This document shows, one piece after another, positions 2,655 to 37,177 of a stretch of 64,000 nucleotides of DNA. The first letter of the stretch is position 1. The number at the start of each line of letters is the position of its first letter. The position numbers and the translations under genes are program-made. The notes beneath the pieces were generated by a model, which saw only the letters and a program-made list of their open reading frames with translations, was not told where the DNA came from and searched no databases. Origin of the DNA: Fastidiosipila sp. (lineage in GTDB: Bacteria > Bacillota > Clostridia > Saccharofermentanales > DTU023); the NCBI GenBank assembly GCA_012511175.1, contig JAAZGO010000004.1, positions 1 through 64,000 of the forward strand, written 5' to 3'.

Positions 2655-2714
2655 CTCAATCTCCTTTCACCGTGAAACCCTATCATCAGTTACAGTCATC
2701 GTTATAAGCTGATT

Positions 2715-4031: not shown

Positions 4032-5354
4032 TTACTCTTCGCCTTCTTCCTTGAACTCATAGTCCTTGCCGGGAAGAATGGCATTCAGGAGGATGCCCAG
4101 GATGGCCGCGATGGCCAGGCCTGACAGGTTGATCGAAGTCGCGCCCACCGGGAAGGTCAGGCCGCCGACCACGTCGAAGCCAAGGCCGGACACCAGGATG
4201 ACGGCTGCCACAATCAGGTTGCGGGTGCTGGTCAGGTCGACCCGGTTCTCAACCATGTTGCGGACACCGATGGCGGTGATCATACCATAGAGGATGAAGG
4301 ACACGCCGTTGATGACCACGCCCGGAATGGTTCCGATGGCGCTGCCGACGATGGGCAGGAAGCTGGCAACAATCGCCATGACCGCCGCCACCTGCATCAC
4401 CCGGGGGTCATAGACGCGGGTCAGGACCAGGACGCCGGTATTCTCACCGTAAGTGGTGTTGGCGGGTCCGCCGACGATGGAGGCCAGGCTGGTCGCCACA
4501 CCATCACCGACCAGGGTTCTGTGCAGACCCGGCTTGGAGATGAAGTTTCTGCCGACCGTAGCCGAAATGGCGACGATATCGCCCACATGCTCCATCATGG
4601 TAGCCAGGGCGATGGGCACAATCGTGATGATGGCACTCACATCGAATTTCATGATCTGGGCCGCCGTGACCGGGACGCCGACGATGCCGACACCCTTGAG
4701 CGCGGAGAAGTTAACCACGCCGAAGAGTATGGAGACAACATAGCCCGTAATGACCCCCATCAGGATGGGGATGATCTTCAGCATGCCCCTGCCCCAGAGG
4801 TTGCAGACAATGATGGTCACCATTGAAACCAGGGCGATCAGCCAGTTGACGCCTGCCGGGAGTACCCCTTTCGCCGTCTCAATCGGGGCCATGATGCCGC
4901 CGATGGCGACCGGGGACAGAACCAAACCGATCAGCATGATGACCGGGCCTGTGACAACCGGCGGGAAGAAGCGCATGACGCGTTTGGGACCGACCAGCTT
5001 GATGATGCCGGCAACGATGATGTAAACGAAACCGGCGACAAAGACACCGCCGCACGCATAAGGCAGCTTGGCCGGGTCATTTTGCCCCACATGCAGGTAA
5101 CCTGCGATGAAGGCAAAGGAAGAGCCGAGGAAGGCAGGAACCTTTCCTCCCGTGACCAGGTGGAAAAACAGGGTTCCGGCACCGGCTGTCAGCAGGGCTG
5201 TCGAAACAGGGAGCCCGGTGATAATGGGAACCAGGATGGTAGCGCCGAACATCGCAAACAAATGCTGCACGCCCAGGACCAGAGTTTTGGGAACCCCCAG
5301 CTCTCTTACGTCATAGACGGGCTCAATGCCCAGCTTTGATTTCTCTTTTGCCAT
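4032..5354 (-). CDS. uraA: Uracil permease (NCS2 family)
   Basis: This is a 440-residue nucleobase:cation symporter of the inner membrane. It carries UraA-type signatures: QHLFAMFGAT near the N-terminus, GSSFAFI, EHVGD in the middle and NTTYGENTGVLVLTRVYD, matching uracil rather than xanthine transporters. The frame extends to 5414, but the ATG at 5354 is chosen because AGGAGA lies seven bases upstream. It has its own promoter and a leader of about 165 nt. It sits downstream of, and in the same direction as, a cluster for amide and carbamoyl chemistry, which suggests that uracil is the imported substrate of that pathway (inference). Confidence 0.9.
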   Translation of the reverse strand: MAKEKSKLGIEPVYDVRELGVPKTLVLGVQHLFAMFGATILVPIITGLPVSTALLTAGAGTLFFHLVTGGKVPAFLGSSFAFIAGYLHVGQNDPAKLPYACGGVFVAGFVYIIVAGIIKLVGPKRVMRFFPPVVTGPVIMLIGLVLSPVAIGGIMAPIETAKGVLPAGVNWLIALVSMVTIIVCNLWGRGMLKIIPILMGVITGYVVSILFGVVNFSALKGVGIVGVPVTAAQIMKFDVSAIITIVPIALATMMEHVGDIVAISATVGRNFISKPGLHRTLVGDGVATSLASIVGGPANTTYGENTGVLVLTRVYDPRVMQVAAVMAIVASFLPIVGSAIGTIPGVVINGVSFILYGMITAIGVRNMVENRVDLTSTRNLIVAAVILVSGLGFDVVGGLTFPVGATSINLSGLAIAAILGILLNAILPGKDYEFKEEGEE

Positions 5355-5521
5355 TCGTTCATCTCCTCTCATAATAAGATTTCCTTTTTGATGCGTTCCG
5401 GACGTTTCCCCCAAAAAACTTGAAACACCTGCCGCATACGGGTTCTTATTATTTTACACAAAGCCTACCACAGGGACCCCATGAATGCATTAGCAATCTT
5501 TACAGGATCCGTGGTTCACTG
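5355..5521 (-). promoter_or_regulatory. Structured uraA leader
   Basis: The leader can form a stem in which ACCACGGATCC (near 5514-5504) pairs with GGGGTCC-CT-GTGGT about 40 nt later, with a two-base bulge. No purine riboswitch core and no convincing PyrR anti-antiterminator loop could be identified, and there is no clear terminator before the start codon. Confidence 0.3.
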
Positions 5522-5615: not shown

Positions 5616-6554
5616 TCAGAGAAAAGCGCCGGCTCTCAAAAGCAGGATAAAGAAGTGCAAGGTGACAAGCGAAACCAGGGAGGTCACCGCCACTGCCTGG
5701 GAGGCCAGTTCCCCATCCCCGCCCATGTTGTAGGCCATGGCTGGCAGGGGGCTGGCGACCGGGCCGCCGAAGGCGACCAGGAAGGAAAGAAGCAGGATCT
5801 CCCGAAAACCCATCCAGATGGCCAGGGGAACAAAAAGGGCCGGGACGATCAGGGTTCGCATGGCAGTTGCCGCAAGGATGGCTTTCCGGTTGCTTCTCAA
5901 GCCCTCAAAGGTCAGGGCAGCCCCCGCGGCCATGAGGGCCAGGGGCGCGGCAGATGATGCAATCTGGCTGACCGGCAGGTAAACCATGGCAGGCAGCTTC
6001 AGGCCCGTCAGCTTGAAAAAAAGAGCCGCCAGAACAGCCAGGATGATGGGGTTGGTGATCAGCTTTTTCAGGATGGGCCGGATGCCCGTCCTATGATTCA
6101 GCATGAATTCGAAAATCAGAACGGACAGGATATTGTAAAGGGGCACCATGACCGCGATCAGGATGCTGGTCACCCCGATCCTTTCAGCCCCGAAGAGGAG
6201 GGTGCCGTAAATCAGGCCGTGCAGATTGAAATTGGAACGGTAGGCACACTGGGCCACCACCGCCGCCCGGGATCTTTGCCTGACCCATCGGAGGGCGAAA
6301 AGGACACCGCCTGCCGCCTGAACCAGGACGCAGACAATGGCAAAAAGGATGGCCTTGAGGTTGAAGGCTTCCGCCAGGTCGGTGTCATAGGTGCTGACAA
6401 AAAGAGCGGTAGCGATGAAGACAACAAAAACCAGGCGGTTGAGGGACCGGCCCATGGATTCCGGGATGATTTTGGATTTCCTGAGCAGGGCGCCCAAAGC
6501 GATAAAAAAATAAAGCGGGAAAAGGGATTCAAAGGTTTCGAGGAATACAGCCAT
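5616..6554 (-). CDS. AEC-family membrane permease (MdcF-like)
   Basis: This 312-residue polytopic membrane protein has the auxin-efflux-carrier pattern: FFIALGALLRK near the N-terminus, about ten hydrophobic segments, and a central break before the motif LTNPIILA-like ITNPIILAVLAA. The family includes the malonate transporter MdcF of Klebsiella, so carriage of malonate or another small acid is possible. The track frame reaches 6611, but the ATG at 6554 is preferred because the longer version would overlap an intrinsic terminator. Its ribosome binding site is weak. It lies between the cyclase gene and uraA. The substrate is not shown by the sequence. Confidence 0.8.
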   Translation of the reverse strand: MAVFLETFESLFPLYFFIALGALLRKSKIIPESMGRSLNRLVFVVFIATALFVSTYDTDLAEAFNLKAILFAIVCVLVQAAGGVLFALRWVRQRSRAAVVAQCAYRSNFNLHGLIYGTLLFGAERIGVTSILIAVMVPLYNILSVLIFEFMLNHRTGIRPILKKLITNPIILAVLAALFFKLTGLKLPAMVYLPVSQIASSAAPLALMAAGAALTFEGLRSNRKAILAATAMRTLIVPALFVPLAIWMGFREILLLSFLVAFGGPVASPLPAMAYNMGGDGELASQAVAVTSLVSLVTLHFFILLLRAGAFL

Positions 6555-6570
6555 CGGGTCTTCTTTTTTG

Positions 6571-6602
6571 AAAACCCCCCGCGCCGGCAAGAGCGCAGGG
6601 GG
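6571..6602 (-). terminator. Rho-independent terminator after the cyclase-family gene
   Basis: A nearly perfect GC stem (6575-6584 with 6593-6602) is followed by TTTTC on the minus strand. It lies between the cyclase gene stop and the AEC permease start, so it ends or weakens the pucR-led transcript. Confidence 0.75.
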
Positions 6603-6649
6603 CGTCAACAAAGGAGAAAGAATGCCGCCTTGCGGCGGGATCCGTCCGT

Positions 6650-7447
6650 TTAGTCGACTTCTTCAAAGGCGACGCAGCGGCAGAAAGCTGACTCGCCGTA
6701 CTGGAACTTCCAGGGGAAGGTCCCCAGGATCAAGCGCTTGTTGAGCACCTTGTCAATCTCGCCGCCGATGCACTCCACGTGAATGATCTCGTCGGGCTGG
6801 GGGAAGAGCTGAATGTGCATGCCCTGGTAAACATCGGGCCAGGGGTAGATCTCATTCAGACCCTTGCCGTAGCGCTTCCTCATGTAGGCATCGCAGGCCG
6901 CCGCTTCCTGGGGCTCCCAGTCGCGGATCTTGGTGTTCATGGGATGGTCGGCCGAGCCGCAGTCAACGGCGATGTACTTGATCTCCATCTCCTTCAGCCA
7001 GGGGATGAAATCCAGCGAGGGGCCCGGATGGCGGAGCATGTAGCGGCGCTCATCGGCCTCGGGCTGGTCAAAGCCGTACTTGTGGTAGCCGGTGCTGATG
7101 AAGATGATGTCTCCCTTTTTGACCTCCACGCGATCCATGATGTCCTGCGGGGTGTAGATGGACCAGTCCTCGGTGATATCCGACAGGTCAACCACCACGC
7201 CGGGTCCCACCAGCTTGTCCATCTCCAGCGAGGCGATGTCACGGCCGGCCGTGTCAAAATGCAAAGGGCCGTCCAGATGAGTGCCCACGTGGTTGGATGT
7301 GGTGATCAGCATGCCGTTGGCTCCGTTGGGGGCCAGGCGCTTGAAGAATTTGACCTGCAGGGGCTCATAGGTGGGCCAGGGCGGGGTCAGATGGCTTGTG
7401 TTAATCGAAAGGTCGTAGACTTTCACTTTATCCCAGTTCTTAATCAT
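6650..7447 (-). CDS. Cyclase-family metal-dependent hydrolase (kynurenine formamidase fold)
   Basis: This 265-residue enzyme has the PF04199 metal-binding signature HVGTHLDGP, with His53, His57 and Asp59, and a typical length for the family. Known members, such as kynurenine formamidase KynB and isatin hydrolase, hydrolyse amides, including cyclic ones. Cytoplasmic location is expected because there is no signal peptide. The start has GGGAGG seven bases upstream. It is the last gene before a terminator in the pucR-DUF2877-fdrA-DUF1116 operon. From that context I infer ring opening of a cyclic imide such as barbiturate, but the substrate is not known. Confidence 0.85.
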   Translation of the reverse strand: MIKNWDKVKVYDLSINTSHLTPPWPTYEPLQVKFFKRLAPNGANGMLITTSNHVGTHLDGPLHFDTAGRDIASLEMDKLVGPGVVVDLSDITEDWSIYTPQDIMDRVEVKKGDIIFISTGYHKYGFDQPEADERRYMLRHPGPSLDFIPWLKEMEIKYIAVDCGSADHPMNTKIRDWEPQEAAACDAYMRKRYGKGLNEIYPWPDVYQGMHIQLFPQPDEIIHVECIGGEIDKVLNKRLILGTFPWKFQYGESAFCRCVAFEEVD

Positions 7448-7500: not shown

Positions 7501-8760
7501 TCAGTCCAGCAGGCCCTCATCATCGAGAAGCCCGACATAGGCCTCAAAAGCGTCTTCAAAACATTTCATGGGCGGGTGGACCACACCGGCCCCTACCTGG
7601 CCGATACCGGCCTCCTTGTGGGCGATCCCCGTATTGATGACCGGCAGGATCTGGGTCTCGATGACCAGGCGGATATCGATGCCCGTCGGCGCGCCCCGGA
7701 AATTCATGGGCGGCAGCTTGTAGCTCTCACTTTCCTCCAGGGTAATCTCATACATCTGGGTGGTGTAGTTGACCGCGTCCTGGGGGGTGCCGCCGACAAA
7801 CTGGACGATGGCCGGGGCCGTCGCCATGGAAAAACCGCCGATGCCCATGGTCTCGGTGATGCAGGAGTCCCCGATGTCGGGATTGGCGTCCTCCATGCTG
7901 TAGCCGGGGAAGTAAAGGCCGTCGATAATCTCGGCCGGGGCCGTAAACCAGCGGTCGCCCAGGGCCGCCACCCGGATGCCGAAATCCGTGCCGTTGCGGG
8001 CCATGGTGTAGACCACCGAGGAATGTTTGACTTTTCCAACCGGGTCCATGGTGGCCTTGGAGGCGGGCATGGACAGGTTCAAGGCAAAGTGGTCATTGGA
8101 GTTGAGGAAGTCAAAGACTTTGGCCTGATCTTCAGGAGTGGCCCGGGTCTTGACAATGCTGGAGGCCATCTCCCGGATAAAGAGCGAGGTGGTGGCCTTG
8201 TTGCGGTTGTGGACCTCATCGCCCATCTGGACCGACTGGGCCATCAGGTTTTTCAGGTCGATGGGGCCATGGATCTCAAGCGCCTCTTTCAGGATGGGAT
8301 AAAGAGTCTTTTCCATCCACCTCAGGTGCTCAATCACCTGGGGGCCGTAGGCGCCGAAGCGCAGGACCTGGCCCAGGCCCTCATTTTGGGTGCAGTAGGC
8401 AAAATTGCCCTCGGTCTTGTTCTCGATGATAAAGACCGGCATGGAGGCCGTCACCACGCCGGCCATGGGACCGACGGCATTGTGGTGGTGGCAGGGATCA
8501 AACTCAATCCGGCCGGACGCGGCCAGCTTCTCTGCCTCCTCCGGCGTTTGAGCCAGCCCCTCATAAATCAGGCCGCCGATGACAGCGCCCCGCAGGGGCC
8601 CCGACATCCGGTCCCAGGTGATGGGCGGGCCCGCGTGCAGGATCAGGTGCTTGTGCATGCCGGGGACCACCTCACCCGCGATGCCCATGCCCACCAGGGT
8701 CGGACGGGCCCCCTGGATCATCTCCAGTGCCTTCTTGTTGGCTTCTTCAATAAAGTCCAT
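7501..8760 (-). CDS. DUF1116 protein (YlbE/AllG-like carbamoyltransferase subunit)
   Basis: This 419-residue protein equals E. coli YlbE (AllG) in length and carries the family's conserved features GPLRGAVIGGLIYEG, FDPCHHHNAVGPMAG and DSCITETMGIGGF. In E. coli this protein works with FdrA and YlbF as the oxamate carbamoyltransferase that phosphorolyses oxalurate to oxamate and carbamoyl phosphate. Here the same three partners are adjacent in one operon. The start has AAGGAG. No allantoin-degrading gene (allantoinase, allantoate hydrolase, ureidoglycolate dehydrogenase) is nearby, so a different carbamoyl-amide substrate is likely (inference). Confidence 0.88.
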   Translation of the reverse strand: MDFIEEANKKALEMIQGARPTLVGMGIAGEVVPGMHKHLILHAGPPITWDRMSGPLRGAVIGGLIYEGLAQTPEEAEKLAASGRIEFDPCHHHNAVGPMAGVVTASMPVFIIENKTEGNFAYCTQNEGLGQVLRFGAYGPQVIEHLRWMEKTLYPILKEALEIHGPIDLKNLMAQSVQMGDEVHNRNKATTSLFIREMASSIVKTRATPEDQAKVFDFLNSNDHFALNLSMPASKATMDPVGKVKHSSVVYTMARNGTDFGIRVAALGDRWFTAPAEIIDGLYFPGYSMEDANPDIGDSCITETMGIGGFSMATAPAIVQFVGGTPQDAVNYTTQMYEITLEESESYKLPPMNFRGAPTGIDIRLVIETQILPVINTGIAHKEAGIGQVGAGVVHPPMKCFEDAFEAYVGLLDDEGLLD

Positions 8761-8791
8761 GATCTCTCCTTCTTTCTATTTCCTGTAATCC

Positions 8792-8968
8792 TTACTTGCT
8801 GCTTTTAAGGCGGCCCAGCAGCGATGCCATTTTCTGGTCACCGCCCGCCGCCGGTTTCCACTGGACCTGGATGGCAGGCACTCCCTGCCGGGTCAAGTCA
8901 TCATAAAAGGACTCAAGGCCCAGGTTGATCACCTTCAGCTCCTGCTTGAACAAATCGTTGACAGACAT
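8792..8968 (-). CDS. 58-residue fdrA-domain small protein
   Basis: This small frame encodes 58 residues beginning MSVNDLFKQELKVINLGLES and including QGVPAIQVQWKPAAGG. AAAGGAG lies eight bases before its ATG. It fits between fdrA (16 bp) and the DUF1116 gene (31 bp) with no other space wasted, so it is a real operon member. It resembles the short proteins annotated as fdrA-domain proteins in clostridial fdrA/DUF1116 clusters. A role as a small subunit or adaptor of the carbamoyltransferase complex is inferred. It has no membrane segment or signal. Confidence 0.82.
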   Translation of the reverse strand: MSVNDLFKQELKVINLGLESFYDDLTRQGVPAIQVQWKPAAGGDQKMASLLGRLKSSK

Positions 8969-8984
8969 CTTCCTGCTCCTTTCA

Positions 8985-10538
8985 TCAGATGCCGGCGGCC
9001 TTCATGATCCGGTCGGCCAGGCGGACCGCCTGGGCGTTGGACGGCATGACCAGGACGCCTGCCTCCTCCAGGACCTTCTTGGATTTTTCCAGATCCTGCG
9101 GGTCCTGGTCCGTTCCCGTGATGGAGGCCACCACGGCCAGATCCCTGCCTGACGCCTGAAGCTTCCGTCGTGCCTTCTCAATTGACTCCGCCACGGCGCT
9201 GGCCGGATCCTCGTGGGAACCGTAGCCCAGGACCACGTCAACCAGGACCAGGGCCGTTGATTGATCCAGCCAGGCATCGAAAAACTCCGTCCGTGTCATG
9301 GGATCGATCATGGGATGGGGCCGGCCCCGGGTAAACTGGTCTTCACCCAGATCCAGGCAGATGTGGCCCGCCCGGCCCTCGAGTTTATCCCAGGCCCGGT
9401 CGGGGGTCAGGGGAATGTTGGAATAGATGAGGTGCTCCGCCCCCAAGTACTTGATGGCCTCATCGGCCAGGGTGCCCCCCGTGTAAAAGGCCCGCAGGTA
9501 TTTTTGATCCGGCTTGAGGCGGGCAAGGGCCTCCCTGACCAGGCGGTCAATTTCCTCAGGGGGCAGATCAAAGCCGTCAAAATCGACGGGCTCCTCTTCT
9601 CGGAGAACCGCCACGGCTTTTCTGGCGGCATCCTCCAGACTCAGGCAGGGAATGGCTCCGGCTTTTTTGACCGATTCGGCCTGGCCGCCGATAAAGTCAA
9701 TGACCACCGGTTTTTCCGCCCCGGCAAGCAAGCCGTAGATCTTCTTTTCAACCGAGGGGGCGGGCGGCTTGGAGACCAGGACGATGACCTCCGTCTCCGG
9801 GTCGGCCAGAAGGGCCTGGATCCCCTGGATCATCATGAGGCCGCCGATCTCTTCCTTCAGGTCGCGGCCGCCGGTGCCGATGACCTGGGAGAGCCCCTCC
9901 CCCAGCTGGTGGATGCGGACCGTGATCTCCTGGGTCCCGGTCCCGGACGCGCCGACCAGGCCGATCCTGCCCCGCCGGACCGCGTTGGCAAAGCAAAGCG
10001 GCACCCCGTTGATGATGGCGGTTCCGCAGTCAGGCCCCATCATGAGCAGACCCTTTTCCACGGCCAGTTTTTTGAGGCGGAGCTCGTCCTCCAGGGCCAC
10101 ATTGTCGGAAAAGAGCATGACATGCAGCCCCTTGCGGAGCGCATTTTCCGCCTCATCCGCCGCATACTGGCCCGGGATGGAAATCTGGGCCAGCCTGGCA
10201 TCCGGCATCAACTTGAGTGCGGAACGCAGGGTGGGCGGCTGGTACTGACCGGCGTGGGCCTCTTTTTTGCTGTTGAGCTGCGCTTCAAAGGAAGCCAGCA
10301 GGTCATCCATGCTGACCTTGGATTCATCAAATTTGGCCGCGATAAACAAATCGTTGGGGGTTACTTTTTCCAGCTCCGGCAAAAACATGTCCAGCATTTT
10401 CACCAGATCCAGGTTCAGGTCGGTCCCCATGCCGGCAAGAACCTCCTCCACCCCCTCCAGCTTCTTCATCTCGCGCGAGATCAGCATGAGGGTGACGGAA
10501 TCGTAATAGGCATTTTCCCTTATGATTGTCTTGATCAT
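8985..10538 (-). CDS. fdrA: FdrA (acyl-CoA synthetase-like carbamoyltransferase subunit)
   Basis: This 517-residue protein has the succinyl-CoA-synthetase-like architecture of FdrA (AllF): a CoA-binding Rossmann domain with GLVGASGTGTQEI, the MMGPDCGTAIINGVPL segment, and a C-terminal ligase half. The E. coli protein is about 555 residues. In that organism FdrA, YlbE and YlbF together form oxamate carbamoyltransferase, a cytoplasmic enzyme. AAGGAG precedes the ATG. The gene is 11 bp after the DUF2877 gene and in the same operon as PucR. Which substrate is used here is inferred from context only. Confidence 0.9.
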   Translation of the reverse strand: MIKTIIRENAYYDSVTLMLISREMKKLEGVEEVLAGMGTDLNLDLVKMLDMFLPELEKVTPNDLFIAAKFDESKVSMDDLLASFEAQLNSKKEAHAGQYQPPTLRSALKLMPDARLAQISIPGQYAADEAENALRKGLHVMLFSDNVALEDELRLKKLAVEKGLLMMGPDCGTAIINGVPLCFANAVRRGRIGLVGASGTGTQEITVRIHQLGEGLSQVIGTGGRDLKEEIGGLMMIQGIQALLADPETEVIVLVSKPPAPSVEKKIYGLLAGAEKPVVIDFIGGQAESVKKAGAIPCLSLEDAARKAVAVLREEEPVDFDGFDLPPEEIDRLVREALARLKPDQKYLRAFYTGGTLADEAIKYLGAEHLIYSNIPLTPDRAWDKLEGRAGHICLDLGEDQFTRGRPHPMIDPMTRTEFFDAWLDQSTALVLVDVVLGYGSHEDPASAVAESIEKARRKLQASGRDLAVVASITGTDQDPQDLEKSKKVLEEAGVLVMPSNAQAVRLADRIMKAAGI

Positions 10539-10549
10539 TGCTATTCTCC

Positions 10550-11542
10550 TTAGCCTGTCATCTTCTCCGTGAAGTCACCAGCCTGCCCCGGAAATTCCTG
10601 ATTAAAAACCGGCCTGTGTACGGCCGCCAGCGGCTTGGGCAGCAGGATCTGGCCGCAATAAAGGCCGTATAAAAAGTCGGCGCCCGATGATGCCCCAAAA
10701 TCCAAAAGCCGGTCAATAACCGGCCCCATCGCCGCCAGATCGCCTGCGCCCGCCGCCCGAAGCGCCTCCAGGTAAAGGAGGCCCGCATGCCCCCGCACAG
10801 CGTGGCGGATCATGTGGTAACTGATCAAGTTGGTCCGCTCCAGGGCCATCTTTTCTATCTGCCCGAAGAAACAGGCAGTCCGGTGTTCTTCGGGACCGCG
10901 GCCGGGAAGGTAGTAAAAACTCAGCAATATCCCCGTCATGAAGTCGTCACAGGAGGGGGTCAGGCCGGGGCCAAAACCGATCAGGGCCCGGGCCAGCCCG
11001 GCCGCCCGGTCCAGATCGTCTTCCTGGCAGGCCTGAAGAAAGCGGCCTAAATCCTTGAGGATAAAGGCGCTGTACATGTTGAGCGGGGCAGGCGGCAGTT
11101 TTTTCTCTTTGCCCGGCAGGACTGTCACAAGGGAGGCGATCCCCCCCTTGTCCGCGGCCGCAAGTTTGTCCCGGATCAGGGCCAGAACCTGATCCTGCCT
11201 GCCCGCCGAAAGCGGGCCCGGCAGCCTTGTGTGGCGCGCCACGGCGCCACGGGTGTCGATGACCCCCTGATTATCGGGCAGGGAAAAGACGCCTTCCGAA
11301 AAGCTGACCCGGCTCCCGCCCGGCAGCAGCAGATTGTGAAGCTTGGGAACCACGGCCCCCATGGGCGTCAGATCGCGGCCCTCCCCGACCAGGGTTACCA
11401 GGACCCGGTCGGACGTGAGGAGATTGACCGCCTTTTTGAAGGCCGAATGGACCTGGAAGACAATGTCTTGCCGGCGTGACAGGAAATCCCTTAATTCAAG
11501 GGCCATCTCCTCTGCGCGAAAGCTCTGCCCCGTCCCGGTCAC
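10550..11542 (-). CDS. DUF2877 protein (YlbF/AllH-like carbamoyltransferase subunit)
   Basis: This 330-residue protein contains the DUF2877 core ALIGFGPGLTPSCDDFMTGIL, the most conserved stretch of YlbF (AllH). E. coli YlbF is shorter, near 271 residues. The GTG start at 11542 overlaps the PucR stop (GTGA) and has AAGGAG eight bases upstream, so translation is coupled to the regulator. It completes the three-protein oxamate-carbamoyltransferase-like set with FdrA and the DUF1116 protein. Confidence 0.85.
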   Translation of the reverse strand: MTGTGQSFRAEEMALELRDFLSRRQDIVFQVHSAFKKAVNLLTSDRVLVTLVGEGRDLTPMGAVVPKLHNLLLPGGSRVSFSEGVFSLPDNQGVIDTRGAVARHTRLPGPLSAGRQDQVLALIRDKLAAADKGGIASLVTVLPGKEKKLPPAPLNMYSAFILKDLGRFLQACQEDDLDRAAGLARALIGFGPGLTPSCDDFMTGILLSFYYLPGRGPEEHRTACFFGQIEKMALERTNLISYHMIRHAVRGHAGLLYLEALRAAGAGDLAAMGPVIDRLLDFGASSGADFLYGLYCGQILLPKPLAAVHRPVFNQEFPGQAGDFTEKMTG

Positions 11543-13221
11543 TGGATCAGCTCCTTGATCTTGAGTGCCAGCTGGAAATTGAAGGCTGTTTCCGGATCCC
11601 GCAGGTCAACGCCATAGACATCGCGGATCCGGTTGATCCGGTAGATGACCGTATTGTAATGGGTGAAGAGCTGTTCGGAAACCCGTTTGAGGTTGCCGCC
11701 CGATTCAAAATAGGCGCGGATGGTCTCGATCAGGTCGCCGCGCTGGCTGGCATCGTGTTCCTCCAAAGCCGCCAGGACCTCCTCCGCGTATGCCAGGGCA
11801 TCTTCGCGAAGAAGCGGGTGGCCCAGCACCCGCAGCAGACCCAGGTCGTCAAAGTAAAGGACTGAGCTTTCCCGGCCGCCCCTGCTCTGCAGGATGCGGA
11901 CGGTCTGCTCAGCCTGCTGGAAGCTGGCAGGCAGCGACCGGTAGGAAGCCACACAGGAACCCACGCCGATGGAAGTATGCTGGGCGATCTCCTTCTCTTC
12001 AGCACAGGCCAAGAGAATGTCGACAAACTGCTCGCTCAGGGCCTGGCGGCCCTCAATGGGGCAGTCCTGGTCAAACTGAAGCAGGAAGACGGCCCGGTCA
12101 CTCTTGCGGGTCGACAGAAAGTAGCCGCTGTAATCCCGCTTGATGCGGTTAGTCAGATTGAGCATGGTGGTATTGAGGTTTTTCACGGTATGGGAATCAT
12201 CGGGGCCTGTCTGGAAACGGCCTTCATGGTTGAGCGCCATCATGATGATCTGGCTCGGCAGGTCGGGGTGGAAGAGATAAAAATCCGCGCTGTCGATGGC
12301 CTTGGCCTGTTCATGGGGATCTTCACTCAAAAGCTGCTCCAGGAAGGTGGTCTGGTGAACATTTTCCCGCTCCACCAGGGTGGTCCGGTTGAGGATGTCA
12401 AGGGCAATCAGGGAGGAGGTCGACTCAATCACAAAAAGATCCTGGGGCCGCAGGCTGCCGTCCACATCCCAGATAAAAATGCTGCCGTAGTGGGTGCTGT
12501 CAAAATAGATGGGGACGGTAAAGCGCCGCAGGCCCTTGCCGCCCGCCGTGACCTCCAGGCCCTTGTCTTTTTCCGCCCGATTCTCGCGCCGAAGGAAAGC
12601 GGCCGAGGTCAGGGCCCGGTAATCCTCTTCGATCCGGCGCTCCTTGACCGGATCCGGACAGTAATAGTAGACCTCATGAAAGATGTCGTCGCTGATGACC
12701 ACCGGGGCCCCGGTGGCCAGGTAAATCTGCTCCGCGATGGCCTGCATGCCCTCATGGCGGAGCATGATCTCCCTCACCGTATGATTGAAATCGTTGATCC
12801 GGGACAGGAGGCGGGTCTGCTCCCCGATGATGTGATTGAAGATCTCCTTGATCAATTCGCCATAGGGTACGTGCTGAGGCACTTTGATAACAGGGAAATC
12901 GATCTGGTCGGCCAGGCGGAGGACAGCTTCCGGCACTTCGCTGATGTAGCGCTGGGTCTTGATGCCCAGCCCGCACACCCCCTTGGCCTTGAGTTCCGGA
13001 ATCAGGCTCTCCAGGGCCGTAATGTCGTGACTGAAGGTGAAGGCCGTCGTCAGCAGGAATTCCCCGGGCCGCACCCAATCGATGATGTCGGGAACCTCCA
13101 TGACATTGACCGAGACAATGCTGTTGCTGAGCCCCTTGTGGCCCGCCAGCACCTCCGCTCCCTGAAGCAAATCCACCTGGAGGATGTCCCGGAGCTGAAT
13201 GGTAAGCTGTTTTTGATCCAT
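11539..13221 (-). CDS. pucR: PucR-family transcriptional regulator
   Basis: This 560-residue regulator has the PucR N-terminal domain (SVNVMEVPDIIDWVRPGEFL) at about residues 30-130, a middle ligand-sensing or GGDEF-like region, and a C-terminal PucR helix-turn-helix (FESGGNLKRVSEQLFTHYNT). The family controls purine, allantoin and related nitrogen-compound catabolism. The ATG at 13221 follows GGAAGG; the longer frame to 13281 lacks a site. It heads the fdrA operon and is divergent from the molybdenum hydroxylase genes, so it is the obvious candidate to control both. Its inducer is unknown. Confidence 0.9.
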   Translation of the reverse strand: MDQKQLTIQLRDILQVDLLQGAEVLAGHKGLSNSIVSVNVMEVPDIIDWVRPGEFLLTTAFTFSHDITALESLIPELKAKGVCGLGIKTQRYISEVPEAVLRLADQIDFPVIKVPQHVPYGELIKEIFNHIIGEQTRLLSRINDFNHTVREIMLRHEGMQAIAEQIYLATGAPVVISDDIFHEVYYYCPDPVKERRIEEDYRALTSAAFLRRENRAEKDKGLEVTAGGKGLRRFTVPIYFDSTHYGSIFIWDVDGSLRPQDLFVIESTSSLIALDILNRTTLVERENVHQTTFLEQLLSEDPHEQAKAIDSADFYLFHPDLPSQIIMMALNHEGRFQTGPDDSHTVKNLNTTMLNLTNRIKRDYSGYFLSTRKSDRAVFLLQFDQDCPIEGRQALSEQFVDILLACAEEKEIAQHTSIGVGSCVASYRSLPASFQQAEQTVRILQSRGGRESSVLYFDDLGLLRVLGHPLLREDALAYAEEVLAALEEHDASQRGDLIETIRAYFESGGNLKRVSEQLFTHYNTVIYRINRIRDVYGVDLRDPETAFNFQLALKIKELIQ

Positions 13222-13637
13222 CTTGCGCTTTCCTTCCTCTACTATTTTACACAAATCCCACTGGACTGCGCTTAGCGTCAATTGACAATATTCGCCGGAT
13301 TTTTCGGATTGTACCTGTCATTTGCATACACACATCTTCCGGTTCCGACGGAACTTCTTTGCATGATTGACACAAAAACCCCTGACCGGGCCGGCAATTG
13401 TCCGGCTCCTTTGCAAGCGGCGGGGAAGCTTGGGTAAACTGACTGACCCTCCCCTTTGGTTCTTGTTGTGTCTTGCCAAATTCAACCGGCTGCTTCTTAT
13501 TATATTGTAAGCAGTCACAAAGTGTTTCTGATTCAATCATGGTAAAATTAAGTTAATCTGCACAATGGGTCCAGGCGTTCTGTCTGGACCGTGGTATTAG
13601 ATGCGAAAGCCATTCGCTTAATAAAAGGAGGTTATCC
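13222..13637. promoter_or_regulatory. Divergent control region between pucR and the Mo-hydroxylase genes
   Basis: About 415 bp without a convincing gene. A plus-strand hairpin GGTCCAG/CTGGACC lies at 13568-13590, and a second smaller one, GCGAA/TTCGC, at about 13602-13618. The AT-rich stretch 13495-13550 should hold the plus promoter, but no near-consensus pair stands out. The hydroxylase GTG start follows AAAGGAGG. Whether the hairpins are part of a molybdenum-cofactor RNA element cannot be judged by eye. Confidence 0.45.
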
Positions 13638-14489
13638 GTGCTAAGTCAATTTGATTATGTCAAACCGCTTGTGCTGGACCAAGCCCTGGATGCACTGTCA
13701 CGCGAGGGGGACACCTACATCCTGGCGGGCGGGACGGATCTTTTGATCAGCCTGCGTCACAACCTGATTGACGCCAAACACATCGTTGACATCAAGGCCA
13801 TCCCCGAACTGGACGTCTTCCATTTCGAAGAGGGAAAGGGACTGGAGATCGGCGCCAATGTGGTCGTCAACCGGCTGATCGATTCGGACCTGATCAAAAC
13901 CAGGTACAAGGCGCTCCATGACGCAGCGTCTGTCCTGGCGTCCTACCAGCTTCGGAACCGCGCCACCCTGGTAGGCAATCTCTGCAACGCGTCGCCCGGG
14001 GCTGATCTGCCGCCCCCGCTCCTGATCTATGACGCCCGGGTCAAGATTGCCAGCAGCGAGGGGGAGCGGACGGTGGACCTGAAGGATTTCTTCACCGGGG
14101 TCAAAAAAACACAGCTGGCCAAAAATGAGCTGGTGGTTTCGGTCCTCCTGCCGGATCCCGGCCAAAATGACAAGAGCTGTTACCACCGTCAGACGCGGCT
14201 CAAGGGCCACGATCTGTCCACGGTCGGGGTCGCCTGCCGCATCGACGGCCAGGGAAAGGCTGCCATCGGCATCAATGCCGTCGCTGTCACCCCTCTCCGC
14301 CTGACCGCTTTGGAAAATGAGCTGAACGCCAGGGGGCTGAATGAGGAATCGATCCTTTGGGCATCGGAGGAAATCAAGAATCACATCAAGCCCATTTCCG
14401 ACGTGCGGTCATCCAGGGAGTACCGGCTGCATATGGCCGGCGTCCTCTTCAGACGCTGCATGAATCAACTGATGGATAAGGAGGCATAG
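13638..14489 (+). CDS. Molybdenum hydroxylase FAD-binding subunit (XDH/CoxM family)
   Basis: This 283-residue protein has the FAD-binding signatures of the xanthine dehydrogenase medium subunit: ILAGGTDLLISLR near residue 30 and YQLRNRATLVGNLCNASPGADLPP near residue 105. It passes electrons from the [2Fe-2S] subunit to an acceptor. The GTG start has a very strong AAAGGAGG site. The next gene starts 3 bp after the stop, so the three subunits form one operon. The acceptor is not clear; no NAD-linked partner or ferredoxin gene is adjacent. Confidence 0.92.
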   Translation: MLSQFDYVKPLVLDQALDALSREGDTYILAGGTDLLISLRHNLIDAKHIVDIKAIPELDVFHFEEGKGLEIGANVVVNRLIDSDLIKTRYKALHDAASVLASYQLRNRATLVGNLCNASPGADLPPPLLIYDARVKIASSEGERTVDLKDFFTGVKKTQLAKNELVVSVLLPDPGQNDKSCYHRQTRLKGHDLSTVGVACRIDGQGKAAIGINAVAVTPLRLTALENELNARGLNEESILWASEEIKNHIKPISDVRSSREYRLHMAGVLFRRCMNQLMDKEA

Positions 14490-14492
14490 AGC

Positions 14493-15041
14493 ATGACCAC
14501 GCATGACGATAAAGATATTTGCGCCATGGAAACCGCCCATGTTGAATCACAGAAAAGACGTGTTATCCTGAGCTGCCGCGTCAACGGGCAGGCTGTGGTG
14601 GAAGAAATCGACCCCACCATGCTGCTGCTCCACTTCCTGCGCGACAAATTGAAGCTGTTCGGCGCCAAGGAAGCCTGCGGCGAAGGCGAATGCGGAGCCT
14701 GTACGGTCATTTTGAACGGCCAGGCGGTCGCTTCCTGCCTGGTTCTGGCTGTGGAAGCCCAGGGCGGCGAAGTCCTGACTGTTGAAGGCCTGGCCAGAGA
14801 CGGCGAACTCAGCATTCTCCAACAGGAATTCGTCTTTGAAGACGCGCTCCAGTGCGGCTTTTGCACACCAGGCATGCTGATGTCAGCCCGGGCCCTGCTT
14901 GACCGCAGCCCCGACCCCACCGATGAAGAGATCATGGAGGGAATGGGGGGCAACCTCTGCCGCTGCACCGGCTACCAGCAGATTTTCAACGCAGTCAAAC
15001 GCGCTGCAAAACGCGAGAGGGAGGAGTTGAAAAGGTCATGA
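14493..15041 (+). CDS. Molybdenum hydroxylase [2Fe-2S] subunit (XDH/CoxS family)
   Basis: This 182-residue protein carries both iron-sulfur sites of the small subunit. Cys62, Cys67, Cys70 and Cys82 (CGEGECGAC motif) form the plant-ferredoxin-like site. Cys121, Cys124, Cys156 and Cys158 (CGFC and CRC) form the second site next to molybdopterin. The N-terminal 22 residues extend beyond the usual start. AAGGAGG precedes the ATG. Its stop overlaps the start of the large subunit by four bases. Confidence 0.93.
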   Translation: MTTHDDKDICAMETAHVESQKRRVILSCRVNGQAVVEEIDPTMLLLHFLRDKLKLFGAKEACGEGECGACTVILNGQAVASCLVLAVEAQGGEVLTVEGLARDGELSILQQEFVFEDALQCGFCTPGMLMSARALLDRSPDPTDEEIMEGMGGNLCRCTGYQQIFNAVKRAAKREREELKRS

Positions 15042-17449
15042 CTCATTCTGAATTAGAACATTGCACCTATCAGGCACACGGCGACTACAAGTCTTCCTAC
15101 AAGCATGTCGGCCAGCCTTATGTCCGCAAGGATGCCGTTGAGAAGGTGACAGGCCAGGCGCGCTACGCCTTTGACCTGGAATTGCCCGGCATGCTCCACG
15201 CCAAGACCTTGCATTCACCCCACGCCCGGGCCCGGATCGTCTCCATCGACACCAGCCGGGCCAAGGCCCTGGTCGGCGTCAAGGCGGTCATCACCGGCGA
15301 AGACTCCGATATCACGGTAGGCCTCTACATGCAGGACAAACTGGCCATCGCCACCGGCGAGACCCGCTATCAGGGCGAGGTGGTTGCGGCTGTCACGGCG
15401 ACTACGGAAGCCATCGCGGAAAAGGCCATCTCCCTGATCGAAGTCGAATACGAGGTCCTGGAACCGGTCCGCAACCTGGACGACGCCCTGGAGGCCAAAA
15501 CCCTGGTCCACGAGGACATCGCCGAAATCAAGCACGTGGAAGGCGTTTTCTTCCCCCAGCCCGACTCCAATATCGCCAGCTTGAACAAGAGCCGCAAAGG
15601 CGACCTGGACAAGGGCATGGCGGAGGCTGATCTGGTGGTCGAGAACGAATTCACCCTGCCTGCGGTGGCCCATGTCCCGCTCGAAACCCACGTCTCCATT
15701 GTCCAGGCTGATCCCTACTCCAACCGGATCCGCATCTGGTCCTCGGCCCAGTCGCCCTTCGCGCTCCGCCAGCTGATGGCCCACAGTTTCGGTGTCAAGG
15801 AATCGGACATTGAAGTCCACATCCCCTTCGTCGGCGGCGCCTTTGGCGGCAAGGCCGGCATCCACCTGGAACCTCTGGTCACCCTGCTCTCCAGAGCCAG
15901 CGGCGGGGCCCCCGTCAAGCTGCGCATGACCCGGGAACAGGAATTCAACTATCTGCCGACCCGGGCCGGCATGCGGGGCCGGATCAAGACAGGCGTCAAA
16001 AAGGATGGCACCATGGTGGCTTCCGATATCGTCTATGACTGGGACAGCGGCGCTTACGCCGACTACGGCGTCAACGTGGGCAAGACGGCCGTTTACGGCG
16101 GCCTGGGCCCCTATGACGTGGACAATGTCTCCATCGTCTCCAAGACCATCTACACCAATAAAGTCTTCAGCACCGCTTACCGCGGCTTCGGACACCTGGA
16201 AACCCTGTGGACCGTTGAGCGCCAGATGGACATCCTGTCCCAGAAACTGGGCATTGATCCCTATGAATTCCGCATGAAAAACATCCTGCGGCCGGGTTCC
16301 ACCACGGTTACCGGCGAACGGGTGACCCGCAGCACCGGCTGCCCGGCCGACTGCCTGTCGGCTGTGGTCAAGGAAATCGGCTGGACAGGCCGCAAGAGCG
16401 AGGAAGAGCGGGCCCGCGAGTGGAAGACCGGCAAGGTCCGCGGCAAGGGCTTCGCCATGATCCAGAAGGCGCCCGCCATGCCGCCCAACACGGCCACCGC
16501 CGTGGTCATGCAGATGGCCGGCGACGGGCATGTCAAGATCATGATCGGCGCCATCGACTACGGCCAGGGCGCCCTGACCTCCATTGCCCAGATCGCGGCC
16601 CAGGAGCTGGATCTGCCCATGGACATGATCGAGGTCATCAAGGAAACCAATACCGAGACCAACCCCTACGACTGGAACACGGTGGCTTCCAAGTACACCT
16701 TCATGGGCGGCAATGCCACTATCCAGGCCAGCCGCAGGATGCTGGACCAGATGAAGGACATCGCCGGCCAGGCCCTGCGCTGCTCGCCTGAGGTCCTGAC
16801 CCACGGGGACGGCTACATCTACAACAAGCACCGGCCTGAGCGGCGGATTGCCTACAAGGACATGGCCCTGGGCTATGCCTACCCCGACGGCAATGGCATC
16901 GGCGGTCCCCTGATCGCCCACGGCATCTGCATGGCGGACGGGCTGACCAACCTGGATCCCGAAACCGGGCAGGGCCTGCCGGCCCTTGCCTGGACCTTCG
17001 GCGCCCATGCCGTCGACATCGAAGTCGACGTGGAGTCGGGCGACATCACGGTCCTGAAAGTGGCCTCCGCCTTCGACCTGGGCCAGGTCATCAACGAACG
17101 CATGGTCTACGGCCAGGTCATGGGCGGCGTCATGCAAGGCATCGGCTCGGCCATTTTGGAAGGCTACAAGTTCAGCGATGACAATGTACTCCTGAACCCT
17201 TCCTTCACCGACAACAAGATCCCCACCTTCAAGGATATGCCGGTCGAAGTGGTTCCCATCTACATCGAGAACCCGCAGCTCAACGGCCCCTACGGCGCCA
17301 GAGGTGTTGCGGAGCACACCATGATTTCCATCCCGTCGGCCATCGGCAACGCCCTTTACGACGCCCTGGGAATCAATTTCTACCACCTGCCCCTGACGCC
17401 TGAAAACGTTGCTTTGGGCATCGCCAGCGGCAAAAAAGACGTCAAGTAA
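15038..17449 (+). CDS. Molybdenum hydroxylase molybdopterin-binding subunit (XDH/CoxL family)
   Basis: This 803-residue catalytic subunit contains GGAFGGK near residue 266, the TAYRGFG active-site loop with Arg382, and a C-terminal GARGVAE motif with the likely general base Glu759. These match xanthine-dehydrogenase-type enzymes that hydroxylate a ring carbon using water. After RGFG the sequence is HLE instead of the usual GPQ, so the substrate pocket probably differs from true xanthine dehydrogenase. The operon has no XdhC-type maturation gene. Given the neighbouring uracil permease and malonate genes, uracil or another pyrimidine is a candidate substrate; xanthine, hypoxanthine and nicotinate remain possible. 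Confidence 0.9.
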   Translation: MTHSELEHCTYQAHGDYKSSYKHVGQPYVRKDAVEKVTGQARYAFDLELPGMLHAKTLHSPHARARIVSIDTSRAKALVGVKAVITGEDSDITVGLYMQDKLAIATGETRYQGEVVAAVTATTEAIAEKAISLIEVEYEVLEPVRNLDDALEAKTLVHEDIAEIKHVEGVFFPQPDSNIASLNKSRKGDLDKGMAEADLVVENEFTLPAVAHVPLETHVSIVQADPYSNRIRIWSSAQSPFALRQLMAHSFGVKESDIEVHIPFVGGAFGGKAGIHLEPLVTLLSRASGGAPVKLRMTREQEFNYLPTRAGMRGRIKTGVKKDGTMVASDIVYDWDSGAYADYGVNVGKTAVYGGLGPYDVDNVSIVSKTIYTNKVFSTAYRGFGHLETLWTVERQMDILSQKLGIDPYEFRMKNILRPGSTTVTGERVTRSTGCPADCLSAVVKEIGWTGRKSEEERAREWKTGKVRGKGFAMIQKAPAMPPNTATAVVMQMAGDGHVKIMIGAIDYGQGALTSIAQIAAQELDLPMDMIEVIKETNTETNPYDWNTVASKYTFMGGNATIQASRRMLDQMKDIAGQALRCSPEVLTHGDGYIYNKHRPERRIAYKDMALGYAYPDGNGIGGPLIAHGICMADGLTNLDPETGQGLPALAWTFGAHAVDIEVDVESGDITVLKVASAFDLGQVINERMVYGQVMGGVMQGIGSAILEGYKFSDDNVLLNPSFTDNKIPTFKDMPVEVVPIYIENPQLNGPYGARGVAEHTMISIPSAIGNALYDALGINFYHLPLTPENVALGIASGKKDVK

Positions 17450-17487: not shown

Positions 17488-17519
17488 AAATCCGCTCCCT
17501 GACCGGGGGCGGATTTTTT
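17488..17519 (+). terminator. Rho-independent terminator after the Mo-hydroxylase operon
   Basis: AAATCCGC (17488-17495) pairs with GCGGATTT (17509-17516) and is followed by a T run. It also overlaps the end of the convergent bioY gene and can work in both directions. Confidence 0.8.
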
Positions 17520-18033
17520 ATGTCTCCAGCAAGGGGCGGATCCGGCCAGCCATCAGGAGGGCCAGGCCGGCCTTGATCAGATCACCTGGCAGGAAGACCA
17601 GCATGCCTGTCTTCAAGAGCCAGACCGGGTCAATCGAATTCATGCCGCCGGCGACATGAAGGATGACCGCCAGGTAGGGCAGGCCGATGAGATAAAGGAG
17701 CAGGGAAGCCGCCGTCACATGGATGAGGCCGGCCGCAGTCCCCGGCCCCCGCCGCTTCGTCAGCCAGGCAAGCAGGGCCGCTGACGGGATAAAGGCCAGG
17801 ACGAAACCAAAGGATGGCGCCAGGAAAAGGCCGGTGCCGCCCAGGAGCAGCTTGAGGATGAGGTGCAGGCACATGGCGTAAAAGGCCTGGGCCGGAGTCA
17901 GCAAAAGACCAGCCAGCAGGACTGCCAGGGTCTGCAGGGTCACAGGGAGCGGGCCCGCCGGGAGGCGGATCAGGCCGGCGGCAAAGGTGACAACGGCCAT
18001 GAGGGAAATCCGCGTGAGGGCGCGGCTGGTCAT
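17518..18033 (-). CDS. bioY: Biotin transporter BioY (ECF S component)
   Basis: This 171-residue integral membrane protein has about six hydrophobic segments and BioY signatures: PLPVTLQTLAVLLAG near residue 28 and APSFGFVLAFIPSA in the middle. BioY binds and imports biotin, with or without the shared ECF energizing module, which is not in this window. Its start overlaps the end of birA by four bases, so the two are co-translated. Uptake of biotin fits the biotin-dependent decarboxylase encoded 3 kb away. Confidence 0.92.
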   Translation of the reverse strand: MTSRALTRISLMAVVTFAAGLIRLPAGPLPVTLQTLAVLLAGLLLTPAQAFYAMCLHLILKLLLGGTGLFLAPSFGFVLAFIPSAALLAWLTKRRGPGTAAGLIHVTAASLLLYLIGLPYLAVILHVAGGMNSIDPVWLLKTGMLVFLPGDLIKAGLALLMAGRIRPLLET

Positions 18034-18977
18034 AGGAGAATGGAAACCTCCCCCGTCGCCAGTGACCGTACCTGACCCCCTTCCCGGTAAAGCAGGGCGC
18101 CTTCATCGGAGATGGCGTGGGGAATAATGATTTGGCCCGTATCCAGCCTGACCTTGTGGCCCAGAATGAAGCAGCGGTCCCGGTAAAAATCCAGCCAGGA
18201 ACGGTCGGGCAGCTGCTGGATCAATTGGCCCTGCTCGTTGGCAATCAGGGCGATCAGGCGGTTCCTGTCCACCCTGGCCCCCGCTTGCAGGAGCGGGCCC
18301 GCCGTCCGGCTGAGACGGCCGGGATAGCCGCCCTCCGGTTCCGTCAGGTTGAGGCCGATCCCCGTCACAAGTGAGGTGGTAAGCCCCGACTCAAGGCCGG
18401 TGACGGCCTCCGTCAGGATGCCGCCTATCTTCTTTCCCTGCCAGTAAAGATCGTTGACCCACTTGATCCCCGCTTGGACCTCCAGCTCACGCTCCAGAAC
18501 CCGGGCAACCGCGACGGCTGCCATGGTGGTGACGAGGACCGGGGGTTCCTCCCGTTCCCAGGCCATGGCCATCGAAAAATAAAGGCCTGATCCGGGCGGA
18601 GAAAAAAAAGACCGGCCCCTTCTGCCGCGGCCCGCCGTCTGTGAATTGGCGGCAAGGATCAGCTTTCCCCTCCCGGTCAGCATGCCCTTGGCCAGGGTGT
18701 TGGTGGAAGTCAATGCTTCCCGGACACGGATGTCCGCCCCCTCCCACCAGCCCGAGAGCCGGCTCCCGATGGCCGGCGCTGAAAGCCGGTCCGTTTCGCC
18801 AAGCAGGGTATAGCCCTGGTTTGGCACCCCCTGGATGTCAAAGCCCTGATCCCTCAGTGATTGGACGGCTTTCCAGACGGCAGCCCGGGTCAGGCCCAGC
18901 CGGGAGGCCATCCGGCCGCCCGAAACCGGCCCCGCTCCTTCCCGCAGCATTTTCAATATCCCGGCCGCTGTGCGCAC
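18030..18977 (-). CDS. birA: Bifunctional biotin ligase / biotin repressor BirA
   Basis: This 315-residue protein has an N-terminal winged helix (MASRLGLTRAAVWKAVQSLR) at about residues 18-45, the ligase core with QTAGRGRRGRSFFSPPGSG, KWVNDLYWQGKKIGGIL, and a small C-terminal SH3-like domain. It attaches biotin to carrier lysines and, with biotinyl-AMP, represses transcription. The GTG at 18977 is chosen because AAGGAGG precedes it; the longer frame starts inside the promoter. A matching operator lies on its own promoter. Its expected client is Lys90 of the carrier protein at 22641-23024. Confidence 0.92.
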   Translation of the reverse strand: MRTAAGILKMLREGAGPVSGGRMASRLGLTRAAVWKAVQSLRDQGFDIQGVPNQGYTLLGETDRLSAPAIGSRLSGWWEGADIRVREALTSTNTLAKGMLTGRGKLILAANSQTAGRGRRGRSFFSPPGSGLYFSMAMAWEREEPPVLVTTMAAVAVARVLERELEVQAGIKWVNDLYWQGKKIGGILTEAVTGLESGLTTSLVTGIGLNLTEPEGGYPGRLSRTAGPLLQAGARVDRNRLIALIANEQGQLIQQLPDRSWLDFYRDRCFILGHKVRLDTGQIIIPHAISDEGALLYREGGQVRSLATGEVSILL

Positions 18978-19004
18978 CTTGTCTCCTCCTTGTGGTTCCC
19001 GGCC

Positions 19005-19056
19005 ATTATGGTAGGCCCGGTCCGGATTGTCAACCAGTTTGATTTGATGTTTACAT
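19005..19056. promoter_or_regulatory. birA promoter with BirA operator, shared with the divergent lysR gene
   Basis: On the minus strand TTGACA (19033-19028) and CATAAT (19010-19005) are 17 bp apart. An inverted repeat TTGTCAAC (19027-19034) N14 GTTTACAT (19049-19056) matches the Bacillota BirA box pattern. Its left half covers the birA -35. Its right half touches a possible plus-strand promoter for lysR (TTTACA 19050-19055, TATAGT 19071-19076, 15 bp spacer). Confidence 0.72.
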
Positions 19057-19112
19057 TCCTGTCCGCCCTTTATAGTATCCTTTAAAAAACAGGGACAGGG
19101 AGGGCGGGCCCC

Positions 19113-22639: not shown

Positions 22640-22640
22640 G

Positions 22641-23378: not shown

Positions 23379-23389
23379 GGCTGCGCTCC

Positions 23390-24931: not shown

Positions 24932-24956
24932 AAGCAATGATTACCCCCCCTGCCCC

Positions 24957-26588: not shown

Positions 26589-26728
26589 GGAGGCCTCCTT
26601 TGATCAAAAAAACTGAAAGACGAAACAACTCTTTAACTTCGGGTGAAGGCCGGTTTCAGGGCCTGGATCTTCTTGTTCAAAGCTATCACTTGCGCCAGGG
26701 GGCGTCAAATACAAAAAGACCTGGTCAG

Positions 26729-26746
26729 TATAGCATTATTGTTATA
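26729..26746. promoter_or_regulatory. Imperfect palindrome upstream of mdcA
   Basis: TATAGCA (26729-26735) and TGTTATA (26740-26746) form an inverted repeat with one mismatch, in an AT-rich island between the divergent mdcA and zincin genes. It could be a regulator site or part of the promoters; no firm -35/-10 pair was found. Confidence 0.35.
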
Positions 26747-37164: not shown

Positions 37165-37177
37165 GCCTGCCCCCTTT

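Follow-up and report, generated by a model that had tools for sequence, protein, structure and literature searches.

The 64-kb window analyzed here (the whole stretch of DNA under study, positions 1-64000 of contig C4 in a 1.7 Mb genome of Fastidiosipila sp. consisting of 42 contigs) contains an operon encoding AllG, AllH and FdrA, the three subunits of an AllFGH-family carbamoyltransferase. This operon probably encodes a catabolic enzyme which acts on an acylurea derived from pyrimidine oxidation and not from allantoin, with uracil being degraded via barbiturate. To our knowledge, the three-part carbamoyltransferase is known only from allantoin breakdown in Escherichia coli. The E. coli enzyme, oxamic transcarbamylase, interconverts oxalurate plus phosphate and oxamate plus carbamoyl phosphate (Kim and Kim, 2024, PMC11326118) and had been predicted earlier (PMC3364942).

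On the minus strand, the gene of a PucR-type regulator is followed by those for AllH, FdrA, a 58-residue protein, AllG, a PF04199 protein (termed cyclase in the following), an AEC-type transporter and an NCS2 permease (Table 1). The PucR frame and the AllH start overlap by 4 nt and Shine-Dalgarno-like sequences are located 5' of the genes for AllH, FdrA, the 58-residue protein, AllG and the cyclase, which fits a single operon. All three subunits scored above the curated cut-offs, with 331.8 bits for AllG (cut-off 27), 76.4 bits for AllH (25) and 501 bits for FdrA with model NF004760 (433); these scores are far beyond chance. The structures obtained by sequence search were exclusively those of single subunits (3dmy and 3clq). 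The 58-residue protein aligns to residues 508-555 of the 555-residue FdrA model and, judged by this alignment, is the detached C-terminus of FdrA and not a fourth family. The C-terminal segment required of the AllFGH family is found here as a gene of its own, and the same holds for the relatives checked, e.g., L018 and L063. An earlier note on this DNA, which had described DUF2877, FdrA, a 58-residue protein and DUF1116 in an operon led by PucR, was right about coordinates and families, but had counted the C-terminal piece of FdrA as a separate protein.

Homologs of E. coli AllB, AllC, AllD and AllK could not be detected in the 64-kb window, and the earlier note had seen no allB, allC, allD or carbamate kinase nearby. 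In the genome, which is 97.7% complete and in which absences rest on family searches, AllC and AllD (PF02615) had no match and the best match for allantoinase reached 243 bits, below the cut-off of 358. As far as this genome shows, the complex stands outside allantoin metabolism, and the respective claim of the earlier note is supported. In the genome search for allantoinase and carbamate kinase, which the note had proposed, no allantoinase passed the cut-off and a carbamate kinase was identified on contig C33 (398 bits, above cut-off) beside genes for arginine deiminase and an ornithine-carbamoyltransferase-like protein.

The cyclase belongs to a family of metal-dependent ring-opening amidases and its metal-site motif HxGTHxDxxxHF is invariant in 21 relatives. 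The structures nearest to the model of the window protein (predicted local distance difference test score 78.5) are isatin hydrolases (5nmp with a Z-score of 18.5 over 199 residues at 2.7 A, tied with 4m8d and 4j0n), and the next nearest folds are those of kynurenine formamidases. The reaction of isatin hydrolase, the opening of a cyclic amide, is of the kind that barbiturate would require. The PF04199 enzyme is predicted to open barbiturate, although the fold does not prove the substrate. With isatin hydrolases and kynurenine formamidases the window protein shares fold and metal-site motif, but at approximately 20-25% identity it belongs to a separate group that is tied to AllG. In two loci (L073:11262-12899 and L091:8379-10016) the cyclase is a tandem duplication of 545 amino acids, the first half of the L073 protein having a degraded metal motif (SVGTHLVGE).

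For the analysis of gene linkage, 80 AllG loci from many phyla were chosen as close relatives and 59 further loci were taken from 398 genomes sampled evenly from the same phylum, 60 of which carry AllG. Together with the window and E. coli this amounted to 141 loci, in which neighboring genes were placed by tblastn. A PF04199 gene was present in 98 of the 141 loci, in 79 of these at a distance of at most 300 bp from AllG, and in 32 of the 59 evenly sampled loci (one of them, L186, weakly). Enrichment was calculated for loci flanked by 8 kb or more on each side, i.e., 53 loci with the cyclase (cyclase-type) and 23 others, whereby kinship among the loci lets the p-values overstate the evidence. 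XdhA was found in 39 of 53 cyclase-type loci vs. 4 of 23 others (p = 8e-6), an amidase or nitrilase in 25 vs. 0 (p = 1e-5), CoA or decarboxylase genes in 32 vs. 4 (p = 9e-4), a CoA-transferase III in 18 vs. 2 (p = 0.02) and a GNAT-like gene in 13 vs. 0 (p = 0.007). The 53 cyclase-type loci further included 29 with an NCS2 permease and 13 with a carbamate kinase nearby (e.g., L136, L137, and L139), and none of them contained AllC. Across many phyla, the PF04199 gene is repeatedly accompanied by genes for a hydroxylase, for an amidase or nitrilase, and for CoA activation or decarboxylation. NCS2 permeases and cytosine-deaminase-like genes recur in AllG clusters as well: matches to AllB near AllG did not represent allantoinases but cytosine-deaminase-like proteins (L018, L028, L063, and L069) or an adenine deaminase (L066), and similar cytosine-deaminase-like genes are located in L059 and L068.

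As carbamoyl transfer should leave an amide, an amide hydrolase is to be expected next, and the resulting acid would have to be activated and decarboxylated. Two unrelated amide hydrolases were found, PF01425 in the window and in Chloroflexota and PF00795 in, e.g., L035, L059, L063, and L139, and the acid-activation genes encode either a CoA-transferase III or MdcA, supplemented by decarboxylase genes of the Mmd/Mad type. Amide hydrolysis by two unrelated families and acid activation by either of two enzymes suit one conserved pathway. Locus L139 combines in one stretch the hydroxylase subunits, MadB, biotin carrier, MmdA, nitrilase, carbamate kinase, cyclase, CoA-transferase, AllG, the small gene, FdrA, AllH and PucR. 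Besides the window, ten cyclase-type loci from separate families and phyla carry malonyl-CoA-type decarboxylase genes within 12 kb of AllG. The malonate operon is closed by the amidase in four close relatives, as in the window; in L196 (on a contig equal in size to that of L015, with coordinates as expected) it is linked to the hydroxylase genes via BioY and BirA, again as in the window, and in L205 (Caldisericota) MmdA, biotin carrier and MadB stand beside a second cyclase-FdrA-AllH set.

In the window itself, three genes for molybdenum-hydroxylase subunits are oriented divergently from PucR, and the malonate operon contains MdcA and the carboxybiotin decarboxylase subunits, as required of a Na+-translocating malonate decarboxylase. 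Uracil degradation via barbiturate is the most economical reading of a set that starts with a nucleobase permease and a hydroxylase and ends with malonate genes. Uracil would be taken up by the NCS2 permease and converted to barbiturate by the molybdenum hydroxylase, whose product the PF04199 amidase would open to ureidomalonate. FdrA with its C-terminal piece, AllG and AllH would then cleave ureidomalonate with phosphate into carbamoyl phosphate and malonamate, ureidomalonate being one CH2 group different from oxalurate. Carbamate kinase may use the former to yield ATP, CO2 and ammonia, while malonamate would be hydrolyzed to malonate by the amidase and malonate converted to acetate and CO2 by MdcA and the biotin-dependent, Na+-pumping decarboxylase. 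Ureidomalonate had already been named the best candidate substrate in the earlier note, from the malonate genes alone and with the upstream enzymes unnamed. That conclusion now finds good support in a wider genomic context. Most relatives have a ring-opening amidase gene next to AllG, genes for a molybdenum hydroxylase, for nucleobase permeases and for cytosine-deaminase-like proteins are present, and independent lineages combine an amidase or nitrilase with either a CoA-transferase or a malonyl-CoA decarboxylase.

Several observations weigh against the uracil route. Directly seen are gene content, family membership, operon structure and conserved linkage, while each substrate and reaction is assigned from family and context. 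The substrate of the hydroxylase is the weakest link of the proposal. With 471.8 bits against a cut-off of 780 for xanthine dehydrogenase (XdhA) the Mo subunit is a member of the family that is not called a xanthine dehydrogenase, the hydroxylases of the clusters are diverse (29-87% identity to that of the window) and their active sites show no clear sign of uracil. Positions of the Mo subunit taken as substrate contacts, in the numbering of bovine xanthine oxidase, are not all kept in E. coli XdhA either and give no usable verdict on the substrate. The carbamate kinase is encoded outside the cluster of the window. Malonate genes lie near AllG in only a part of the cyclase-type loci and, taken alone, are not significantly enriched (8 of 53 cyclase-type loci vs. 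2 of 23, p = 0.71); the argument drawn from them relies on complete sets of neighboring genes in separate lineages and not on enrichment. The malonate operon has no acyl carrier protein, the only PF06857 match of the genome being located about 40 kb away (C4:66231-66470), and the decarboxylase is possibly a CoA-dependent variant. A conserved trio of genes beside the cluster in L053 (4414-6687) and about 12 other loci, encoding a GNAT-fold protein that matches no Pfam family, a thiolase-like protein and a protein with a DUF35 domain (ChsH2-type OB-fold), is not accounted for by the route. The 248-residue family beside the thiolase and DUF35 genes of the relatives has a GNAT fold and might be a GNAT-type malonyl-CoA decarboxylase, the matches listed being generic acetyltransferases.

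A further adverse point, the best score of the relatives' CoA-transferase III being obtained with CoA:oxalate CoA-transferase, leads to the alternative of an ordinary oxamate carbamoyltransferase. Hydroxylase and PF04199 protein would in this case convert a five-membered ring, hydantoin, via parabanate to oxalurate, the substrate of E. coli AllFGH (PMC11326118), and oxamate would give oxalate for activation by the CoA-transferase. All those CoA-transferase matches, however, remain below the curated cut-offs, the decarboxylases present are of the malonyl/methylmalonyl type, and no Gcl/Oxc-type thiamine pyrophosphate enzyme was found near AllG in cyclase-type loci, apart from a weak Gcl-like match at the edge of L153. 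In a quick tree of 138 AllG sequences, those of the cyclase type form one large group (96 of 108 rows; Shimodaira-Hasegawa-like approximate likelihood ratio support 89, under the star threshold) which excludes E. coli AllG, and the latter clusters with loci carrying AllC (8 rows, support 97). Residues were compared after exclusion of L046 and L159, seemingly mis-extracted and with extremely long branches, and of the very divergent L186. At position 188 (window numbering) all 95 cyclase-type sequences have Asn and those of the allantoin type have Gln or Met; at position 96, where the window protein has His, the cyclase type shows His (90) or Tyr (5) vs. Val or Ala, the allantoin type being represented by only four sequences. 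Each of the two positions adjoins residues which are invariant in all contexts. The clade and the residues of the window AllG, both differing from the allantoin set, likewise argue against oxalurate, which we regard as an unlikely substrate.

It is improbable that hydroxylase and cyclase process another N-heterocycle and that AllFGH acts on a different acylurea, e.g., 1-carboxybiuret from cyanurate. 1-Carboxybiuret is, like ureidomalonate, an acylurea with a terminal carboxylate. It is formed by the hydrolysis of cyanurate (PMC3758960), and a gene of the AtzD/TrzD family (PF09663) does adjoin AllFGH in loci without cyclase in four genomes (G013, G112, G237, and G368) and lies within roughly 3 kb in G209. 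The protein encoded in G013 is almost identical with the solved cyanuric acid amidohydrolase 6bum. Of the 19 cyclase-type genomes tested none contained PF09663, compared with 6 of 16 other genomes with AllG (p = 0.005). The genome of the window, searched in the same way as the six genomes with matches, contains no PF09663 protein and hence no AtzD-family barbiturase, the mark of a Rhodococcus-type route. In addition, cyanurate requires no hydroxylase and gives no malonate. The neighborhood of AtzD/TrzD and AllFGH suggests that several ring-opening enzymes may supply AllFGH enzymes with acylurea carboxylates, and it supports the view of the PF04199 protein as a ring-opening enzyme. As an extrapolation beyond the present finding, acylurea carboxylates in general may be substrates of the family. 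In L160 (8194-9297), L170 (8226-9329) and L213, PF09663 is located beside AllFGH and an NCS2 permease, in several cases with carbamate kinase, possibly a carbamoyl-phosphate-saving route for cyanurate.

Thymine as substrate, or both bases, via 5-methylbarbiturate, a methylated ureidomalonate and methylmalonate to propionate, would involve otherwise identical chemistry and agrees with the best score of the carboxyltransferase, obtained for methylmalonyl-CoA decarboxylase alpha yet under the cut-off, but has little probability given that MdcA passes the cut-off for malonate decarboxylase alpha and that several clusters hold cytosine-deaminase-like genes, a pointer to uracil.

The uracil route resembles known systems in part. 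With E. coli AllFGH the window complex shares the three subunits (AllG 48%, FdrA 37% identity) and, by analogy, the phosphorolysis of an acylurea to carbamoyl phosphate would be expected here too, while it differs in lacking allantoin genes, in the two pieces of FdrA, in the other neighbors with AllK not adjacent, and in the position of AllG outside the E. coli/allantoin clade. The oxidative pyrimidine route of Rhodococcus, for which PMC3758960 cites Soong et al., proceeds by barbiturase and ureidomalonase. Barbiturate, ureidomalonate and the product malonate would be common to both, but as described there the barbiturase is of the AtzD family and ureidomalonate is hydrolyzed to urea and malonate, in contrast to the predicted opening by PF04199 and a phosphorolysis that would save carbamoyl phosphate. 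Biotin- and Na+-dependent malonate and methylmalonyl-CoA decarboxylases (Mad, Mmd) are similar in MdcA, MmdA-like carboxyltransferase, biotin carrier and MadB/OadB, but the window operon is devoid of an acyl carrier protein and closes with an amidase. The YgeW-type carbamoyltransferase of anaerobic purine and urate degradation likewise forms carbamoyl phosphate from a ureido compound in an anaerobe, but belongs to the ornithine/aspartate transcarbamylase family and uses diureidopropanoate (PMC12990295). The genome of the window also carries, at G000:C24 (L102-L104), genes for dihydropyrimidinase-like and cytosine-deaminase-like amidohydrolases, an XdhA-like protein and an ornithine-carbamoyltransferase-like carbamoyltransferase, probably a purine degradation cluster.

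Table 1. Genes of the AllFGH operon and its surroundings in the window.
Feature	Position	Strand	Evidence
NCS2 nucleobase:cation symporter	4032..5414	-	TIGR00801 327 bits, cut-off 291.8; best subfamilies uracil permease and RutG, below their cut-offs
AEC-type membrane transporter, possibly for organic acids	5616..6611	-	PF03547 7.7e-19
PF04199 metal-dependent ring-opening amidase, predicted barbiturate hydrolase	6650..7447	-	PF04199 3.3e-32
AllG (DUF1116) subunit of carbamoyltransferase	7501..8760	-	PF06545 2.1e-99; homolog of PDB 3clq
58-aa protein, C-terminal segment of FdrA/AllF	8792..8968	-	NF004760 residues 508-555, 1.2e-11; 45% identity to E. coli FdrA C-terminus
FdrA/AllF subunit, CoA-binding and CoA-ligase domains	8985..10538	-	NF004760 501 bits, above cut-off; PDB 3dmy
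AllH (DUF2877) subunit	10550..11542	-	PF11392 3.3e-21
PucR-type regulator, heads operon	11539..13281	-	PF07905 1.1e-34, PF13556 1.6e-22
Molybdenum hydroxylase FAD subunit (XdhB-like)	13638..14489	+	PF00941 1.5e-48
Molybdenum hydroxylase 2Fe-2S subunit (XdhC-like)	14493..15041	+	PF01799 6.7e-31
Molybdenum hydroxylase Mo subunit (XdhA-like), predicted uracil hydroxylase	15038..17449	+	NF043082 471.8 bits; 30% identity to E. coli XdhA
BioY biotin transporter	17518..18033	-	PF02632 3.5e-22
BirA biotin ligase	18030..19199	-	TIGR00121, above cut-off
LysR-type regulator	19113..20048	+	NCBIfam LysR family matches
Amidase-signature amidase, last in malonate operon, predicted malonamate amidase	19970..21463	-	PF01425 5.1e-95; same position in four relatives
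Na+-pumping carboxybiotin decarboxylase beta subunit (MadB/OadB)	21476..22726	-	TIGR01109 476 bits, cut-off 191
Biotin carrier protein	22641..23024	-	Reading frame with biotin-attachment motif EAMKME
Small OadG-like membrane subunit	23040..23393	-	Position, hydrophobic N-terminus; conserved in relatives
Carboxyltransferase (MmdA-like)	23390..24937	-	PF01039 5.8e-201; TIGR01117 858 bits, cut-off 999
MdcA, malonate:ACP (acyl carrier protein)/CoA transferase	24957..26588	-	TIGR01110 793 bits, cut-off 789

Beside the malonate operon, the reading frame 26705-27175 on the minus strand is probably a shadow, the opposite frame 26804-27193 (+) appearing protein-like by eye. A nucleoside ABC transporter of the PnrA/Bmp type and two inosine-uridine nucleoside hydrolases encoded side by side, a possible source of nucleobases, are found at 35195-42175. 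A fused CitX-CitG protein is located at 57279-58754 and the PF06857 acyl carrier protein just past the window, possibly a citrate lyase region. Positions 1-2700 (-) encode a long protein of secreted appearance, signal-like at its start and with domains resembling repeats, which extends beyond the window start, and at 51197-53167 (-) phosphoglycerate kinase and triosephosphate isomerase are fused in one frame of 656 amino acids.

Among open-licence papers, to which the literature search was confined with subscription journals outside of it, reports on the E. coli enzyme, on its prediction and on the aerobic oxidative pyrimidine route (PMC3758960) were found, and nothing linking AllFGH to pyrimidines. 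An anaerobic route from uracil via barbiturate to malonate in which energy is kept as carbamoyl phosphate is apparently undescribed. It is well conceivable that AllFGH represents a general family of acylurea-carboxylate phosphorolases with at least three natural contexts, namely oxalurate in allantoin, ureidomalonate in pyrimidine and 1-carboxybiuret in cyanurate degradation, of which the pyrimidine type, the commonest in the loci examined, would support an undescribed, energy-conserving anaerobic fermentation of uracil via barbiturate in many phyla. The rarity ascribed to the oxidative pyrimidine route stems from its being counted by AtzD-type barbiturases, AtzD/Bar homologs occurring in 3% of surveyed genomes (PMC3758960). 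If the proposed route is true, a variant that opens the ring with another enzyme and saves carbamoyl phosphate would be widespread in anaerobes, considering AllG in 60 of 398 genomes of the phylum and the cyclase in 32 of 59 loci, and many AllFGH genes that now carry the label oxamate carbamoyltransferase would need another name. For every predicted step a gene can be named, also in the cultured Acetomicrobium hydrogeniformans ATCC BAA-1850, which carries the L063 cluster, and this makes the idea directly testable.

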